Made by a program: the position numbers and the translations under genes. 64,000 bases of DNA from Fibrobacter sp. UWB10. GTDB lineage: Bacteria > Fibrobacterota > Fibrobacteria > Fibrobacterales > Fibrobacteraceae. The stretch covers positions 868,001 to 932,000 of the forward strand of contig NZ_FXUE01000002.1 in the NCBI RefSeq assembly GCF_900182935.1, given 5' to 3'. Shown piece by piece: positions 5,876 to 13,353 of the stretch. How positions within the stretch are numbered: position 1 is the first letter of the stretch; the number at the start of each line of letters is the position of its first letter. The notes below the pieces were generated by a model, which was given only the letters and a program-made list of their open reading frames with translations, did no database searches and was not told where the DNA came from.

Positions 5876-7075
5876 ATGAAACTGATTGAAAGAACAGAGT
5901 ATTTGGACACATTGAAAAATGTCAGGGGTACACCCGACATCAAGGTGATAACCGGAATCCGTCGTTCCGGCAAATCAAAATTATTAGAATCCTTTGCAGA
6001 ATGGATTGCAAAAAATGATAAAAAGGCAAACATCATCAAGATCAACTTCAACTTGACGAAGTTTGAAAAATTACAGAACTATTCCGCACTCGAAGAATAT
6101 GCAGAACAGGCGTACAAGCCTAAAAAGACAAACTATCTGTTCATCGACGAAGTTCAACTTTGCGACTCGTTCGAAAAGGCTTTGAACAGCCTGCACGCCA
6201 CGGAAAAATTCGACATCTATGTAACCGGCTCAAATGCATTCCTGCTTAGTAGCGATCTGGCAACGCTCTTTACGGGTAGAACTTTTGAGATACCCGTCTT
6301 CCCGTTTTCGTTTGCGGAATACACAAAATACTACAAGCCGAAAAAAATGGAAGACTCGTTCGAATCCTACCTTAAAGAAGGGGGGATGGCGGGTTCCTTC
6401 TTATACAAGACTGAAAGCGAAAAGTTCCGTTATGTGAACGAAGATGTTTTCAACACGTTGGTTATCCGCGACATCGTCAAAAAATACAAGATTCGGAACA
6501 AGGTCTTTCTTGAAAAACTGATTGACTTTTTGATGGACAATGTCGGCAACATCACCTCCATCCGAAATGTCGCCAAGACAATCAGCACCACAGGCGACAA
6601 GACGAACCATAAAACCATAGGTTCTTACATCGATTATTTATGCAAGGCATTCGCCTTCTACAAAATCCGAAGATTCAACATTCGCGGAAAAAGATACTTG
6701 ACCACGGAAGACAAATACTACTTGAGCGACCATTCGTTCCGCTACGCAAGACTCGGGACCCGCAACATGGACTACGGCCACGTGTACGAAAACATGGTTG
6801 CCATGGAATTACTTCGAAGGGGTTACCAACTTTACGTCGGAGTCCTATACAAGAAAGAAATCGACTTTGTAGCAATGAAACATGACGAAAAGCTGTATAT
6901 CCAGGTATCGGACAACATCTCGGACAAGAAGACTTTTGAAAGGGAAACGGCCCCGCTGCTCGGAATAAAAGACGCATACCCCAAAATGCTCATCGCGAGA
7001 ACAAACCACGAAACGACCCAGTACGAAGGAATCAGAATCGTCGATGTCTCAAGATGGCTTCTTGGCATGGATTAG
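5876..7075 (+). CDS. AAA-type ATPase with C-terminal DUF4143-like domain
   Basis: 399 residues. The N-terminal P-loop domain has Walker A GIRRSGKSKLL (about residues 27-37), Walker B YLFIDEV (about 88-94) and a sensor-like VTGSNA. The C-terminal half fits the DUF4143 family, with a nuclease-like end (YENMVAMELLRRGY, then EIDFVAMK). Members are common in accessory regions and their role is unknown. GGGAG lies seven bases before the ATG at 5876. The A-rich codon use is unlike that of nifJ, which suggests acquired DNA. An inverted repeat covers its promoter region. Confidence 0.85.
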   Translation: MKLIERTEYLDTLKNVRGTPDIKVITGIRRSGKSKLLESFAEWIAKNDKKANIIKINFNLTKFEKLQNYSALEEYAEQAYKPKKTNYLFIDEVQLCDSFEKALNSLHATEKFDIYVTGSNAFLLSSDLATLFTGRTFEIPVFPFSFAEYTKYYKPKKMEDSFESYLKEGGMAGSFLYKTESEKFRYVNEDVFNTLVIRDIVKKYKIRNKVFLEKLIDFLMDNVGNITSIRNVAKTISTTGDKTNHKTIGSYIDYLCKAFAFYKIRRFNIRGKRYLTTEDKYYLSDHSFRYARLGTRNMDYGHVYENMVAMELLRRGYQLYVGVLYKKEIDFVAMKHDEKLYIQVSDNISDKKTFERETAPLLGIKDAYPKMLIARTNHETTQYEGIRIVDVSRWLLGMD

Positions 7076-7300: not shown

Positions 7301-7339
7301 TTAGTCCGAGTCCTTGACGCAACGAACAGAAAAATCAAT
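7301..7339 (-). pseudogene. C-terminal remnant of a FISUMP gene
   Basis: The reverse strand reads IDFSVRCVKDSD then TAA, which matches the conserved FISUMP C-terminus (GFSVRCVKD). Nothing upstream in that frame belongs to the domain. It overlaps the end of a small LEPR-motif gene in another reading frame, so a deletion probably fused a micro-gene to the tail of a lost FISUMP gene. Confidence 0.6.
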
Positions 7340-7436
7340 CGGAGACAGCAGCATCTTCAGCCGTGGCACTAAGCATGAATCTCGGTTCAAGAGGTTCAAC
7401 ACTATAGTTATTAGAAATCTTTCCTTTTTTCGACAT
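7335..7436 (-). CDS. Micro-gene with LEPR motif, copy 1 (33 residues)
   Basis: ATG at 7436 is preceded by AGAGGAA at a good distance. The peptide starts MSKKGKISNN and contains VEPLEPRFMLSA. The LEPR-x-x-L/M pattern resembles the LEPR-XLL motif found at the start of very large surface proteins, but here the frame stops at 33 residues. It lies 68 bases downstream of the FISUMP gene at 7505-8773. The end is probably altered by the deletion that left the FISUMP remnant. Two related micro-genes lie at 8841 and 10175. Confidence 0.5.
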   Translation of the reverse strand: MSKKGKISNNYSVEPLEPRFMLSATAEDAAVSD

Positions 7437-7504
7437 AATGAATTCCTCTAGAGTTTCTTAATTAACAGATGTGTGATATTTCAAAGGCCTTGCAAACCAC
7501 GACT

Positions 7505-8773
7505 TTAATAATTTTTTACACAACGAACAGAGACTCCATATTTTTTGGGATTAGCTGCATCAAACGTAGAGTATTTTGAAATGCCACCTCCCATGCTTTT
7601 ATTTTCTACAGGCTCGGTTTCCCTTGGAAAACCATAATACCCCCCCCCTCCAATATTATCAAAAAAAGAATCTCCATTTTCCTCAAAGCATCTATATCCC
7701 GCAGCAATAAAACTAAATCCAGAGGTATTGTACCCAAAACTAATCGAATACGAGACCTCCGACGCAAGCGTACTCATTCGATCTTCAATATAAGTGCTTC
7801 CGCCTGTCGCATAAGATACGGCGAGCATTTCCAGCTTAGTAATCAAGTGCCAACCGCTCGGGCAAATTCCCTGGTGGAACCCATCATGGTCGGGATCTAT
7901 CTGGTCGGCACAACTCTTGCTATTGCACTCATACGGCAACGCCATCATTTCGGCCCACTGGTAGAGTCCGCCCCACCAGTCGTTACAATATTCAACGCTA
8001 TCGTTATAGCAATACATTTCAACCTTGGTATCATCGTCCTGTTCATTTGCACCGAGCGTTATCTTTTCATGATATTTTAGGTTTTGCGCAAAAACTGTAA
8101 AAGTGATTTTAGGAACGCTGTCCGGGCCGTACTTGTTCGTTATTTCAATGGTCGCATACTTCGTTCCATCACGAGTGTCTTCATATTCACCATAAGACAA
8201 GTTATAACCCAATGGACTCGGCAGGGGTTCATAGCCTCGGCTACTGCTGCTGCGGGCGACGGAACTAGATGAGGGAGGAAGATAAACGACCCACACACCA
8301 TCTACACATTTGGCGAATTCATCTCCTATTTTTTTCTTTAAGCCTTCTTTTGGGCAAGGTCCCCCCATTACATCTTTAGAACTAGAAGAAGATACGGAAA
8401 TTTCACTCGAAGATGAACTAACTGACGAACTGGACTTATCCTTACTACTGCTAGAAGATTCACCCGACTTCACAGAACTTGAGCTCTTGGAGTCGGACGA
8501 GTTCTTTGTTTCTTTTGCGGAACTACTGGACACTTCGGCGGGCTCGGAACCCTTGACACTACTGGAAGACTTGTCTTTTTCCGTAGATTCATTTCCTGAC
8601 GACTTCTTGTCAACAGAAGATGATGACTCATCCAAATCAGAAGTTTCTACCGATGAACTGGAAGTACCGGTTTCGTCGCCACTCGCCGACGAAGAGTCAT
8701 CGCAGGCGGAAAGGGCGAAGAATGCCGCGAGCACCGCCACCCACAAGAAACCAAGACCCTTGACACACTTCAT
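7505..8773 (-). CDS. FISUMP-domain lipoprotein (array member 1)
   Basis: A predicted lipoprotein of 422 residues. The signal peptide ends ALSAC (Cys24). A poly-Ser linker runs to about residue 140. A Cys-pair module follows (CPKEGLKKKIG...AKCVDGVWV), then a second short Ser stretch, then the FISUMP domain (MYCYND, GGLYQWAEMM, GICPSGWHLIT, GVSVRCVKN). The ATG at 8773 was chosen because GGAG sits upstream and the signal peptide starts there; an in-frame TTG at 8851 would add 26 residues but overlaps the upstream micro-gene. The first 80 or so bases, plus sequence before the start, are nearly identical to array member 2. Confidence 0.88.
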   Translation of the reverse strand: MKCVKGLGFLWVAVLAAFFALSACDDSSSASGDETGTSSSSVETSDLDESSSSVDKKSSGNESTEKDKSSSSVKGSEPAEVSSSSAKETKNSSDSKSSSSVKSGESSSSSKDKSSSSVSSSSSEISVSSSSSKDVMGGPCPKEGLKKKIGDEFAKCVDGVWVVYLPPSSSSVARSSSSRGYEPLPSPLGYNLSYGEYEDTRDGTKYATIEITNKYGPDSVPKITFTVFAQNLKYHEKITLGANEQDDDTKVEMYCYNDSVEYCNDWWGGLYQWAEMMALPYECNSKSCADQIDPDHDGFHQGICPSGWHLITKLEMLAVSYATGGSTYIEDRMSTLASEVSYSISFGYNTSGFSFIAAGYRCFEENGDSFFDNIGGGGYYGFPRETEPVENKSMGGGISKYSTFDAANPKKYGVSVRCVKNY

Positions 8774-8873
8774 ACCATTATCTCCTGTAAAAATTTTCAC
8801 CACCCACAAACCAAGCAATGTGAAATATGGAATGTGGAATTTATACCGCAAAATCCATCATCAGACGAGGCTC
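8689..8873 (-). repeat. Homogenised 5' cassette, copy 1
   Basis: About 185 bases spanning the micro-gene C-terminus, the 67-base spacer, the ribosome site and the signal-peptide codons. They differ at only a few positions from 10020-10206. Sequence on both sides diverges sharply. Confidence 0.85.
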
Positions 8874-8930
8874 AAGTGCCTCTATTTTGTAATTGTTTAG
8901 ATTCTTGTCGTTCGGATTTTTCTTAGCCAT
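8841..8930 (-). CDS. Micro-gene with LEPR motif, copy 2 (29 residues)
   Basis: ATG at 8930 has GGAG seven bases upstream. The peptide begins MAKKNPND and ends KIEALEPRLMMDFAV. It is basic at the N-terminus and has no export signal. It sits 31 bases after the stop of the FISUMP gene at 8962 and 67 bases before the start of the FISUMP gene at 8773. Copy 3 has the same length range and an almost identical C-terminal half. It may be a leader peptide, a free micro-protein or a truncated surface-protein start. Confidence 0.6.
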   Translation of the reverse strand: MAKKNPNDKNLNNYKIEALEPRLMMDFAV

Positions 8931-8961
8931 GAGTCTGCTCCGTTCTTTATTTTTCTTGTTT

Positions 8962-10107
8962 TTACCTTAAAAAAGTATCGCCTTCGTCTTGTACACATCG
9001 AATACTCATAAAACCATACTTTCTTGCCGAACTTACTGTGAAATCATCAATAGTAAAATCAACTACTCCGCCATTACTCTCAGACTTTTCGTAGGGGATC
9101 CAAAAACTGGACACTTTATTATAAGGGTATTCATCACCGCTTGGTAGCACGGACATTCCATAAGGATTATTTCCTCTCTTCTTTTCCCATACTGCATGAG
9201 ATAGTAGAGAATAACTCATATTTAATCCGTTTGTGTAGGCAAAGTGCTTCCATTCGGTTTCCGTCATCACGTGCCAACCCGTCGGGCATACCCCCTGAAC
9301 TTTTTTGCTAAGGTCAATGTTGCACTTGGGGTTATCTGCAACACCAACGCTGTCACACACCTTGGGGAGTCCCATCGCCTCGCTCCAGGTGTAACGGGCA
9401 CCAAAGTAGTTGTCGCAATACCAGGGGTCATCCTTGTAGCAGCGTTTTTCGACCTTGCTGTCATCAAATACTGTCGTGGTGCTGTCAATCATTATTTCTG
9501 CGTAATTCAGGTTCTGAGCCATTACGGTAAAACTGTCTATTACAGTTCCACCATTCTGCTGGAACTTTTCATAATATTTGGTTGTCTTGTAAACATTGTT
9601 ATCACGCAAATCTTCGTACGTGCCGTATGCTTTAAACTCCGACCCAAATACGCTATCCATATTCGGGTAAACCTTGGGTTTCACATATTCACCAATGGAA
9701 TCTTGATTCCATTGGCCATTTTTGCAACTATTGTAATAGATTTTACCGGCAAGAACAATCGATGAGGTATCACCGTCTTCACAAAGTTTGAACACAAATT
9801 CAGAGCTGCTACTTTCTCCCTTCTGCGACGAGCTACTGTTTTTTGTGTTTTCTTTTTTTGATGACGAACTATTTGATTTGGCATCGCTTGAAGAATCTTT
9901 ACTCTGATTATCAGAAGATTCAATCTTTTTATCAGAGCTACTTGATTCGTCATCACAATCCTTACAGACCGAAGATGAAGAATCAACCGCCGCACTTTCA
10001 TCCGGTCCGTTGCTAGAGGCCGACGATGAGTCATCGCAACCGGAAAGGGCGAAGAACGCCGCGAGCACCGCCACCCACAAGAAACCAAGACCCTTGACAC
10101 ACTTCAT
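8962..10107 (-). CDS. FISUMP-domain lipoprotein (array member 2)
   Basis: A predicted lipoprotein of 381 residues with signal peptide ending ALSGC (Cys24). A Ser-rich linker extends to about residue 105 and is less regular than in its neighbours. A single Cys-pair module (KLCEDGD...NSCKNGQW) precedes the FISUMP domain (MAQNLNY, KRCYKDDPWYCDNYFGARYTWSEAMGL, GVCPTGWHVMT, SIRCV). The start at 10107 is set by GGAG and the signal peptide, as in member 1. The mature part is clearly different from member 1 although the leaders are near identical. Confidence 0.88.
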   Translation of the reverse strand: MKCVKGLGFLWVAVLAAFFALSGCDDSSSASSNGPDESAAVDSSSSVCKDCDDESSSSDKKIESSDNQSKDSSSDAKSNSSSSKKENTKNSSSSQKGESSSSEFVFKLCEDGDTSSIVLAGKIYYNSCKNGQWNQDSIGEYVKPKVYPNMDSVFGSEFKAYGTYEDLRDNNVYKTTKYYEKFQQNGGTVIDSFTVMAQNLNYAEIMIDSTTTVFDDSKVEKRCYKDDPWYCDNYFGARYTWSEAMGLPKVCDSVGVADNPKCNIDLSKKVQGVCPTGWHVMTETEWKHFAYTNGLNMSYSLLSHAVWEKKRGNNPYGMSVLPSGDEYPYNKVSSFWIPYEKSESNGGVVDFTIDDFTVSSARKYGFMSIRCVQDEGDTFLR

Positions 10108-10206
10108 ACCATTATCTCCTGTAAAAATTTTCACCACCCACAAACCAAGCAATGTAAAATATGGAATGTGGAATTTATACCGCAAAATCCATCATCAGAC
10201 GAGGTT
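10020..10206 (-). repeat. Homogenised 5' cassette, copy 2
   Basis: Partner of 8689-8873. It includes the shared end of the LEPR micro-gene, the 67-base spacer and the signal-peptide region. Confidence 0.85.
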
Positions 10207-10261
10207 CAAGCTGTTCGATTTTGAAATTGTTCATTCCGCGATTGTATTTTTTCTTAGCCAT
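10175..10261 (-). CDS. Micro-gene with LEPR motif, copy 3 (28 residues)
   Basis: ATG at 10261 is preceded by AAGGA. The peptide begins MAKKKYNR and ends KIEQLEPRLMMDFAV. It lies 24 bases after the stop of the FISUMP gene at 10286 and 67 bases before the next FISUMP start. The last 30 or so bases of the gene belong to the homogenised cassette. The first half differs from copy 2 but keeps the MAKK start and the Asn-rich, basic character. Confidence 0.6.
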   Translation of the reverse strand: MAKKKYNRGMNNFKIEQLEPRLMMDFAV

Positions 10262-10285: not shown

Positions 10286-11494
10286 TTAGTCTACTTTTAC
10301 GCACCGAACTGAGAATCCATGCGTTTTGTATGTATCCTGCGTACTGTTTGATTTCGAACTTCTTGTTTGAAGCCCAACAAAAGAAGCAATATTATTATCA
10401 TTAGAACGACCTTCTTCCGGATAGTGCCAATAAGCAGACTCTTCTATATTTCTAAATTCATAGTTCCAATTATATCCAGCACCAATCAGTCCATATCCAC
10501 TATAATTAAAGCCACCAAAGCCCATGCTCCGAATATCGGCAACACCATTTCTATTTCCATTTGCATGCACAACGACATACATATCATCATAAGTTAAAAG
10601 TCTCCATCCATCTGGGCAAATTCCCTGATGGTTTGGCTTAATAGAGTCAGCACAACTCTTGGTGTTGCATTCGCTCGGCAACTTCATCATTTCCGCCCAT
10701 TGATAGAGTCCGCCATACTCTTCGCATTTCATTGTATCATTGTCATAACAATACCGCTCAATCTTGGAATCATCATTTTGATCCTTATTGCCGTCGACCA
10801 TTTCGCCGACATTTAGATTTTCCGCCATGACAGTTACAGAGGCAGCTTTACCATCCTGATTTTTACCATTGATTGTCAGATAATAGTAGGATCGTCCCTC
10901 ATATGTAAACTTTTTGTACGCCCCAGCATGCATACTATCAGCCCCTAATGCTCGATTGCAGAAAGCATACCCAGGCGTGCATAATCTGGAAGAGTCAACT
11001 TCAAAAACGGAACTACTGGATTTAGGCAAGACAGAACTTGAACTAGACTGTTTCACAGAAGAACTGCTACTTTGCATTTCACTCGAAGACGAACTCACCG
11101 ATGAACTAGAGTTGTCCTTGTTGCTGCTGGATGAGTCATCGGACTTCACAGAACTTGAACTCTTGGAGTCAGATGAATTCTTTGTTTCTTTCGCGGAACT
11201 ACTCGACTTAGCGTTACTACTCGATGACTGGTCTTTTTCCATATTTTCGTCACTAGACCCATTCGACTCCGCTGACTCCGGAGCCTGTCCTGAACTTGTC
11301 GAAGGACTCAGGGTGACACTCGAATCAGACGACTCTACAGACGAACTGGAAACACTTGTTTCATCGGAACTTGCCGACGACGAGTCGTCGCAAGCCGAAA
11401 GGGCGAAGAGTGCCGCGAACAAGAAGATGGTTAGAGATTGCTTCCCCTGAAACAAGTTCAGGGTCGCAATGACACGCTGGAAAGACTTTTTCAT
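10286..11494 (-). CDS. FISUMP-domain lipoprotein (array member 3), with in-frame repeat insertions
   Basis: A predicted lipoprotein of 402 residues. The signal peptide is unusually long and ends FALSAC (Cys35). Residues 8-20 (VIATLNLFQGKQS) are encoded by a dispersed GTCATTGCGA...GAAGCAATC palindrome. A second repeat in the linker encodes VTLSPSTSSGQAPE. The Ser-rich linker ends near residue 165 and the FISUMP domain follows (MAENLNVGE, RYCYDND, YGGLYQWAEMM, GICPDGWRLLT, GFSVRCV). The domain is close to that of the gene at 519-1550. GGGAT precedes the ATG. It is the first gene of the reverse-strand array. Confidence 0.88.
   Translation of the reverse strand: MKKSFQRVIATLNLFQGKQSLTIFLFAALFALSACDDSSSASSDETSVSSSSVESSDSSVTLSPSTSSGQAPESAESNGSSDENMEKDQSSSSNAKSSSSAKETKNSSDSKSSSSVKSDDSSSSNKDNSSSSVSSSSSEMQSSSSSVKQSSSSSVLPKSSSSVFEVDSSRLCTPGYAFCNRALGADSMHAGAYKKFTYEGRSYYYLTINGKNQDGKAASVTVMAENLNVGEMVDGNKDQNDDSKIERYCYDNDTMKCEEYGGLYQWAEMMKLPSECNTKSCADSIKPNHQGICPDGWRLLTYDDMYVVVHANGNRNGVADIRSMGFGGFNYSGYGLIGAGYNWNYEFRNIEESAYWHYPEEGRSNDNNIASFVGLQTRSSKSNSTQDTYKTHGFSVRCVKVD
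11281..11317 (-). repeat. Dispersed repeat inside coding sequence (linker)
   Basis: On the minus strand it reads GTCACCCTGAGTCCTTCGAC and continues AAGTTCAGGACAGGCTC, a common intergenic palindrome. It is translated in frame within the Ser-rich linker of the FISUMP gene. Confidence 0.8.
11436..11473 (-). repeat. Dispersed repeat inside coding sequence (signal peptide)
   Basis: On the minus strand: GTCATTGCGA, a hairpin CCCTGAAC / GTTTCAGGG, then GAAGCAATC. It is translated in frame inside the signal peptide of the FISUMP gene, displacing its N-terminal region. Confidence 0.8.
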
Positions 11495-12634: not shown

Positions 12635-13353
12635 GACATCGGTTACGGTGGTCTCGACCACGCCGTGAGCCGTAGGCGACTCGTCATAACGAGTCGTCGG
12701 AGGCGAGAGTGAGCGCCGACCGGAGTGCCACGCAAGAATCTAGCGCGAACGGTCATCATAGGGCCACCGGTGAAAACGTGAACATCTGCGTCCTCGATAC
12801 CGAAGTGTATTCCAACACCGGTGGACAGGCATCCAAGGCCACGAACCGTGGCGCAGTCGCCCTCTTCGCTGCCGCTGGCAAGCGCGCTGGCAAGAAGGAC
12901 CTCGGCCTTATCGCCATGAGCTACAAGAACGTTTACGTGGGCCGTATCGCCCTCGGCGCAAACGACGCTCAGGCCCTAAAGGTTCTCCAGGAAGCAGAAG
13001 CACACAATGGTCCGTCTCTGATCATCTGCTACTGCCCCTGCATCAACCACGGTTTCGATCTCAACAGCCAGCTTCAGCACCAGAAGATGGCTGTGGATTC
13101 CGGTTACTGGACTCTGCTCCGTTACAATCCGGCTCTCGCCGCCGAAGGAAAGGCTCCGCTTATCCTCGACTCCAAGAAGCCGACGATCCCGGTCGCAGAA
13201 TACATCTACACCGAAAACCGCTACAAGCAGCTCACCCGTAACAATCCGGAAGTGGCCAAGAAGCTCGCCGACGACCTCCAGAAGGAAGTTGATGCACGCT
13301 ATGCATTCTACGATGCGATGAGCAAGGACACCGAAGGGTTGATCAGCCTGTAA
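12635..13353 (+). pseudogene. nifJ: Truncated 3' copy of nifJ
   Basis: It encodes the last ~200 residues of the PFOR, ending at the same stop codon as the intact gene. Only the C-terminal part is present, so it cannot be a working enzyme. Between 12663 and 12771 the frame is broken by about 105 extra bases. From 12772 to the stop I count 18 base differences from the intact gene. Seventeen are synonymous and one changes Ser to Asn. That pattern indicates that this copy evolved in a functional gene before it was cut off. Confidence 0.9.
12663..12771. mobile_element. Small inserted element within the nifJ fragment
   Basis: Compared with the intact gene, about 109 bases replace four (TGAT). The insert has a hairpin GACTCGT / ACGAGTC (loop CATA), the text GCCGTAGGCG (also found between the B repeats at 36350) and an end GGTCAT that recalls the ATGACC end of family B. 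It encodes nothing and looks like a small non-autonomous palindromic insertion. No target duplication is evident. Confidence 0.6.

Follow-up and report, generated by a model that had tools for sequence, protein, structure and literature searches.

Short LEPR frames behind FISUMP genes in Fibrobacter as probable joints of exchangeable lipoprotein cassettes

Introduction

The LEPR-XLL motif is a known feature of very long proteins. The pil system of Neisseria, in which surface proteins vary by gene conversion, is known for arrays of variable cassettes. The gut bacterium Fibrobacter has dozens of FISUMP lipoprotein genes, for which, to our knowledge, no role is known. For F. succinogenes S85, 54 copies are reported (PMC4704652). 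In human microbiomes, proteins with their domain, Fib_succ_major, are reported to be among those varied by diversity-generating retroelements (PMC4159848). Here, we describe a locus in which LEPR starts and FISUMP genes are brought together: an array of three FISUMP genes and three short LEPR frames (micro-ORFs; ORF, open reading frame) on the reverse strand of a 64,000-nucleotide stretch of Fibrobacter sp. UWB10 (contig NZ_FXUE01000002.1, positions 868,001 to 932,000), called the window below. An original prediction, made from the letters of this DNA, had noted the pairing and proposed that the micro-genes could be leader peptides, secreted or cell-bound micro-proteins, or seeds of surface proteins. 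We consider it likely, from comparison of related loci, that such stubs are instead detached 5' ends of giant LEPR genes and form the 3' joint of FISUMP cassettes that recombination moves and exchanges.

Results

The array in the window

The predicted frames of 33, 29 and 28 residues are all present on the reverse strand, and micro-ORFs 1, 2 and 3 score 24.4, 18.6 and 19.3 bits, respectively, with the NCBIfam model LEPR-XLL (NF012209; cut-off, 17 bits); contrary to what is expected of this family, these frames of 28 to 33 aa are not the N-termini of very long proteins. They do alternate with FISUMP genes, all three of which exceed the TIGR02145 cut-off of 41.65 bits, and the array does end in a FISUMP remnant (FSVRCVKDSD). 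Units that we call class A end in MDFAV and a stop codon; an almost constant spacer comes next and leads to the FISUMP signal peptide MKCVKGLGFLWVAVLAA. In the direction of transcription, the features of the array, and the tract and flank discussed below, are as follows.

10286-11494, reverse strand: FISUMP lipoprotein gene, first in the array, whose signal peptide (MKKSFQRVIATLNLFQGKQSLTIFLFAALFALSAC) differs from the others; TIGR02145, 58.6 bits
10175-10261, reverse strand: LEPR micro-ORF 3, 28 aa, MAKKKYNRGMNNFKIEQLEPRLMMDFAV and stop; putative class A joint
10108-10174, reverse strand: class A spacer, 67 nt, micro-ORF 3 to FISUMP 2
8962-10107, reverse strand: FISUMP lipoprotein gene, cassette 2; TIGR02145, 74.7 bits; PF09603, 43.4 bits
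8865-9678, reverse strand: tract of 814 nt, 96.1% identical, common to cassette 2 and the FISUMP-LEPR start heading the giant gene L009:3111-17669
8841-8930, reverse strand: LEPR micro-ORF 2, 29 aa, MAKKNPNDKNLNNYKIEALEPRLMMDFAV and stop; putative class A joint
8774-8840, reverse strand: class A spacer, 67 nt, micro-ORF 2 to FISUMP 3, with near-identical copies in other Fibrobacter genomes
7505-8773, reverse strand: FISUMP lipoprotein gene, cassette 3, MKCVKGLGFLWVAVLAAFFALSAC...; TIGR02145, 70.7 bits
7335-7436, reverse strand: LEPR micro-ORF 1, 33 aa, MSKKGKISNNYSVEPLEPRFMLSATAEDAAVSD and stop; LEPR start and giant-like codons fused to a FISUMP 3' end
7301-7337, reverse strand: FISUMP 3' remnant, DFSVRCVKDSD and stop, in a frame different from that of micro-ORF 1, behind which it ends the array
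5876-7075, forward strand: AAA_14/DUF4143 ATPase gene (PF13173, PF13635), a flank that marks the locus and lies outside the cassettes

The two class A copies of the window are about 97% identical over a span of about 180 nt that begins at the LEPR motif and reaches into the FISUMP signal peptide; beyond it they are unrelated. Micro-ORFs 2 and 3 have the MDFAV tail and the spacer in common, whereas micro-ORF 1 has giant-like codons after LEPR instead. The view that the three micro-genes are of one kind therefore stands for micro-ORFs 2 and 3 but not for micro-ORF 1, which by its sequence is a deletion scar, different in kind. Micro-ORFs 2 and 3 are best read as cassette joints, that is, as detached LEPR 5' ends of giants that are closed by the MDFAV tail of the next unit. 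LEPR-to-FISUMP-tail fusions like micro-ORF 1 were found at L045, L092, L102, L097 and L213, and the same type of FISUMP end as the remnant stands before LEPR-less spacers in L060 and L179.

The same start opens giant genes

When the genome was searched with micro-ORF 2, eight matches were obtained (the LEPR start recurs eight to nine times in this genome). Three of the eight stand at the very start of frames of about 4,850 to 5,050 codons (L009, L010 and L011; 4852 to 5050 aa), which are paralogues and each have a FISUMP gene directly before them; the remaining matches are stubs resembling the micro-ORFs of the window. L009, the one of these three giants that was scanned with NCBIfam and Pfam, carries RTX calcium-binding repeats. 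In its 5' part, micro-ORF 2 is nearly identical to the first codons of the 4852-aa giant of contig C3. The link to giant LEPR-XLL surface proteins is thus closer than had been proposed, as a 5' end of the same kind, judged by its DNA, opens giant RTX proteins in this genome, which has 87 FISUMP domain matches.

The tract at 8865-9678 is the within-genome case of sharing. Cassette 2 and the region heading L009 match over these 814 nt at 96%, the DNA on both sides is unrelated, and divergence sets in after LEPR. In this one pair, an array copy has a segment in common with a second locus of its own genome, as in systems of the vls and pil type.

LEPR starts stand behind FISUMP genes across Fibrobacter

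A profile built from the LEPR starts of the window's genome was searched against 80 Fibrobacter genomes and matched 43. Most of these loci were retrieved, and 113 LEPR starts in 38 genomes were analysed, of which six are cut by a contig end. Among the 107 that could be tested with a FISUMP-protein profile, 106 have a FISUMP stop codon 12 to 237 bp upstream (median, 54). Because the loci were searched by the LEPR peptide, this link is independent of how they were found. It is shown by these loci that, in Fibrobacter, a FISUMP gene almost always immediately precedes the LEPR start. That start opens a giant protein in 31 of the 113 cases, and many others stop a few codons past LEPR; the comparison shows that the predicted product is either a giant (RTX type where tested) or a frame closed within a few codons. 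The search of Fibrobacter genomes that the original prediction had called for thus bears out the pairing, and the 67-base distance from micro-gene to FISUMP gene, correct for both intact cases in the window, is found in 14 class A units, counting the two of the window, and a further unit has 66.

Other genera of the family show the pairing as well: in G144 and G145, the LEPR loci that were examined stand behind FISUMP genes, as apparently does the G146 locus; at the loci examined in two other families of the phylum, LEPR proteins do not stand behind FISUMP genes. As a separate observation, a small LEPR-like ORF precedes the FISUMP gene at six giant loci (L070, L068, L138, L051, L067 and L073), giving an alternation of LEPR-like frames and FISUMP genes; these ORFs read either ESLERRQMMDGA..., with a length of about 140 aa, or SIERLKPRFMVDAL..., with one of about 40 aa.

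Near-identical cassettes continue into unrelated tails

In 15 pairs of loci, the FISUMP 3' end and the LEPR start are both at least 90% identical, and the tails are unrelated (<60% identity) in 13 of the 15, including combinations of a giant with a micro-gene. Upstream identity is 99 to 100% between a G079 giant and a G069 class A stub, between G010 giants and G045 class A stubs, and between a G017 giant and a G075 class B stub. In pairs uncut by contig ends, the common tracts are 524 to 1181 nt long and 93 to 99% identical, mostly dropping to 46 to 57% upstream, and their 5' edges, where mappable, lie 37 to 121 residues past the lipobox Cys. Since the FISUMP domain, the intergenic stretch and the first ~22 LEPR codons are near-identical before differing continuations, they appear to form an exchangeable cassette. 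Its 3' edge is within or beside the LEPR codons; the 5' edge, in those cases that could be mapped, falls within the Ser-rich linker past the lipoprotein signal peptide.

At a site adjacent to PFOR, differing arrays are found in G000, G003, G042 and G044, and no array was detected at this site in G010, G039 and G045; the genomes compared here are about 97% identical at PFOR. Sharing also extends between genera. The genome of another genus carries a class A joint, and the ATPase-gene flank of one of its FISUMP-LEPR loci is 98.5% identical over 1.49 kb to that of a Fibrobacter locus (L213, 1558-3045; L089, 500-1986), compared with 86.7% for PFOR between the same genera, which indicates transfer between them. 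Beyond the array, the window also holds a second, partial copy of PFOR (12754-13353; the last 200 codons, protein 98.5% identical), and partial copies at the same site are present in G010, G042 and G044.

Tail classes and truncated giants

Three recurrent tails account for 43 units, and the idea that the stubs end by chance, with random tails, was rejected. Besides class A, which is found inside arrays, there are class B, ending in MDA and a stop, and class C, ending in MAAVE or MAAVK and a stop, which is found at the end of arrays. From genome to genome, the tails of class A are 98% identical, while the FISUMP and LEPR parts upstream of them are 54 to 60% identical. A separate group, into which micro-ORF 1 falls, consists of LEPR starts with a giant N-terminus that is cut at many lengths or fused to FISUMP 3' ends (CTVVVLE, FSVRCLKD). 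As far as sequences can tell, these varied lengths and fusions show the loss of giant bodies. The original suggestion of seeds of surface proteins thus came nearest in its link to such proteins, but the direction appears mostly reversed, the stubs being detached ends of giants.

In this group, a giant N-terminus is truncated at exactly 146 aa in five genomes (L062, L089, L100, L109 and L122), and the start of this truncated giant is also present in another genus (L230). After several class B stubs, a sequence AAAGAAAGCGACGGCGAATG...CCGCTAAGCGGACAGTAAAGGCCGAAGGCCG recurs in five genomes (L012, L013; L044, L048, L057, L059).

Do the stubs act as peptides?

The best surviving alternative is that the LEPR micro-genes are working small genes, whose short basic peptides act with or control the neighbouring FISUMP gene as a leader, a secretion helper or a surface micro-protein. 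Defined C-termini (MDFAV, MDA and MAAVE) do recur across species, which favours this reading, but the class A tail owes its conservation to its DNA, in which one recurring downstream module begins, and not to peptide ends having converged. A Shine-Dalgarno match of at least 4 nt precedes 27 of the 32 class A and B units, against 14% at random positions; in these units it belongs to the common cassette. In class C it is present in only two of nine units.

With the class A spacer, and not the LEPR motif, as the anchor, we could also count frames that had decayed. Of 21 such LEPR frames, 18 are intact and 3 (14%) are broken by a stop, by a frameshift or lost start, or by a change of LEPR to LGTR, and in two further cases the class A spacer comes after a FISUMP gene with LEPR missing altogether. 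The spacer divergence between pairs is 1.5% (median; mean, 3%), and a selection-free simulation gave 10 to 26% broken frames at 0.5 to 1% change per copy. The observed fraction lies within this neutral range and, in these small numbers, gives no sign of selection on the stubs.

The synonymous-bias analysis that had been suggested did yield a low nonsynonymous/synonymous ratio for the micro-genes (0.13 to 0.14). However, the starts of the giants have the same ratio (0.13), and as stub segments are exchanged with giants, the low value cannot separate a peptide from a joint; it was dropped as support for selection on the micro-frames. Two genomes, G045 and G040, with 10 to 11 copies and no detected giant, speak for working genes. 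Taken together, the sequences give no clear positive support for a peptide function, whether as leader or as secreted micro-protein, and we regard this alternative as unlikely.

Discussion

In this study, we have compared the LEPR stubs of one Fibrobacter array with LEPR loci across the genus, and the pattern of shared and unshared segments is consistent with an exchange, through homologous recombination or by gene conversion, between arrays and loci in which a FISUMP gene precedes a giant. It can be envisioned that a swap would change the lipoprotein produced together with a giant surface protein and would thereby diversify the cell surface. LEPR would then be kept because it is the common coding start of the giant genes, and not because the stub peptide works. 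That recombination is the process, that it continues and that surface variation gains from it are what we infer from these patterns. A broader proposal, that tandem FISUMP-LEPR cassettes take part in a continuing, genus-wide surface variation, recombining with FISUMP-giant loci, with the start codons of giants doubling as the crossover joint and with cassettes crossing species and genera, is offered tentatively, and we would sooner doubt it than rely on it.

Several points weigh against cassette exchange as set out here. Exchange is deduced from sequence and could have run either way, from array to giant or the reverse, and there is only one swapped pair inside a single genome. Among the analysed loci, no array cassette with a class A spacer stands directly before a giant, so that the route between array and giant is indirect. 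The array cassettes probably are not silent, as they look complete, with a Shine-Dalgarno sequence and a signal peptide. The near-complete genomes G040 and G045 keep 10 to 11 short LEPR starts, and no giant C-terminus was detected in them; their stubs would fit a joint less well unless giants were lost recently. Finally, 39 pairs have a common LEPR start but differ in the FISUMP end, which suggests that LEPR also recombines separately and that the cassette is not one rigid unit.

It may also be asked whether any continuing exchange is needed. The stubs could be passive relics of a few giants truncated by deletion, whose remnants were copied as FISUMP genes duplicated in tandem. Giants cut at many lengths and fused to FISUMP tails, the identical 146-aa truncation in several genomes, and micro-ORF 1, itself such a fusion, are what would be expected of relics. 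Repeated exchange is suggested instead by the 13 of 15 close pairs with near-identical FISUMP and LEPR parts but unrelated tails, and the within-genome pair of giant and array, with unrelated DNA on either side, and the differing arrays at one syntenic site also fit relics poorly. We consider this explanation improbable, somewhat more so than that of working small genes.

The placement of breakpoints in or beside the LEPR codons, and the tandem arrays of cassettes in a single orientation, are reminiscent of integrons, in which case the LEPR region would be a site at which an integrase recombines. The DNA of the joint is too variable for this: 22 different 12-mers encode LEPR among 41 micro-genes, homology ends at bases that differ from pair to pair, and the 5' edges vary over more than 80 residues. 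Given synonymous variation in LEPR and variable breakpoints in place of a fixed recombination-site DNA at the cassette edges, an integron-like system was rejected and appears very improbable. That the micro-ORFs are chance frames or assembly artefacts in repetitive DNA is hardly credible, since, although many arrays lie at contig ends, as is typical of repeats, the frames score above the LEPR-XLL cut-off, adjoin FISUMP genes in 106 of the 107 cases from 38 genomes, and recur in the interior of long contigs, one of these being the single contig of a genome from another genus.

If FISUMP cassettes are exchanged at LEPR joints, as we favour, the order of a FISUMP gene followed by a LEPR giant leads to the hypothesis that certain FISUMP lipoproteins can stand in for one another as partners of giant surface proteins. 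Exchange of partners might serve attachment to plant fibre or evasion of phages, both of which are speculative. The cassette explanation would also account for free-standing LEPR stubs, which would otherwise be annotated as small genes or missed. With regard to the lipoprotein itself, an AlphaFold2 model of FISUMP (mean pLDDT, 83) has mostly C-type-lectin-like proteins as its best Protein Data Bank (PDB) matches, which are weak (E values of 0.024 and above and query-normalised TM scores of at most 0.27 among the matches listed), and a sequence search of the PDB gave no match; the FISUMP domain may be a C-type-lectin-like ligand binder.

Comparison with known systems

By profile, the stubs belong to LEPR-XLL (NF012209, LEPR-8K), which in Fibrobacter, too, forms the N-terminus of giants; what differs is that many copies here are stubs of about 26 to 40 codons, with a FISUMP gene ahead of every one. 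The lipoproteins themselves are typical of the FISUMP/Fib_succ_major family (TIGR02145, PF09603). In keeping with the original prediction, which knew of no description of it, the pairing appears to be new: a search of the open-licence literature found no paper on a fixed LEPR-FISUMP pairing or on exchange of such cassettes.

Polymorphic toxin systems (PMC3482391) offer an analogy, in that a part from a standalone cassette replaces an existing part by recombination while the architecture of a giant is kept. In Fibrobacter, however, the variable part would be a separate upstream lipoprotein gene, the joint would lie at the start of the giant gene and not at its end, and no toxin or immunity gene is implied. 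The vls system of Borrelia (PMC11499132) likewise has arrays of variable surface-protein cassettes with segmental sharing with another locus. Unlike those of vls and of Neisseria pil, the Fibrobacter cassettes look complete, several giant loci are involved, and the system is known here from sequence alone. Diversity-generating retroelements act on the same domain family, Fib_succ_major, as a diversified surface domain (PMC4159848). Such an element acting here was rejected, as the window's genome has no match to reverse transcriptase (PF00078) at E <= 0.001; in contrast to those elements, diversity in Fibrobacter appears to move as whole cassettes.

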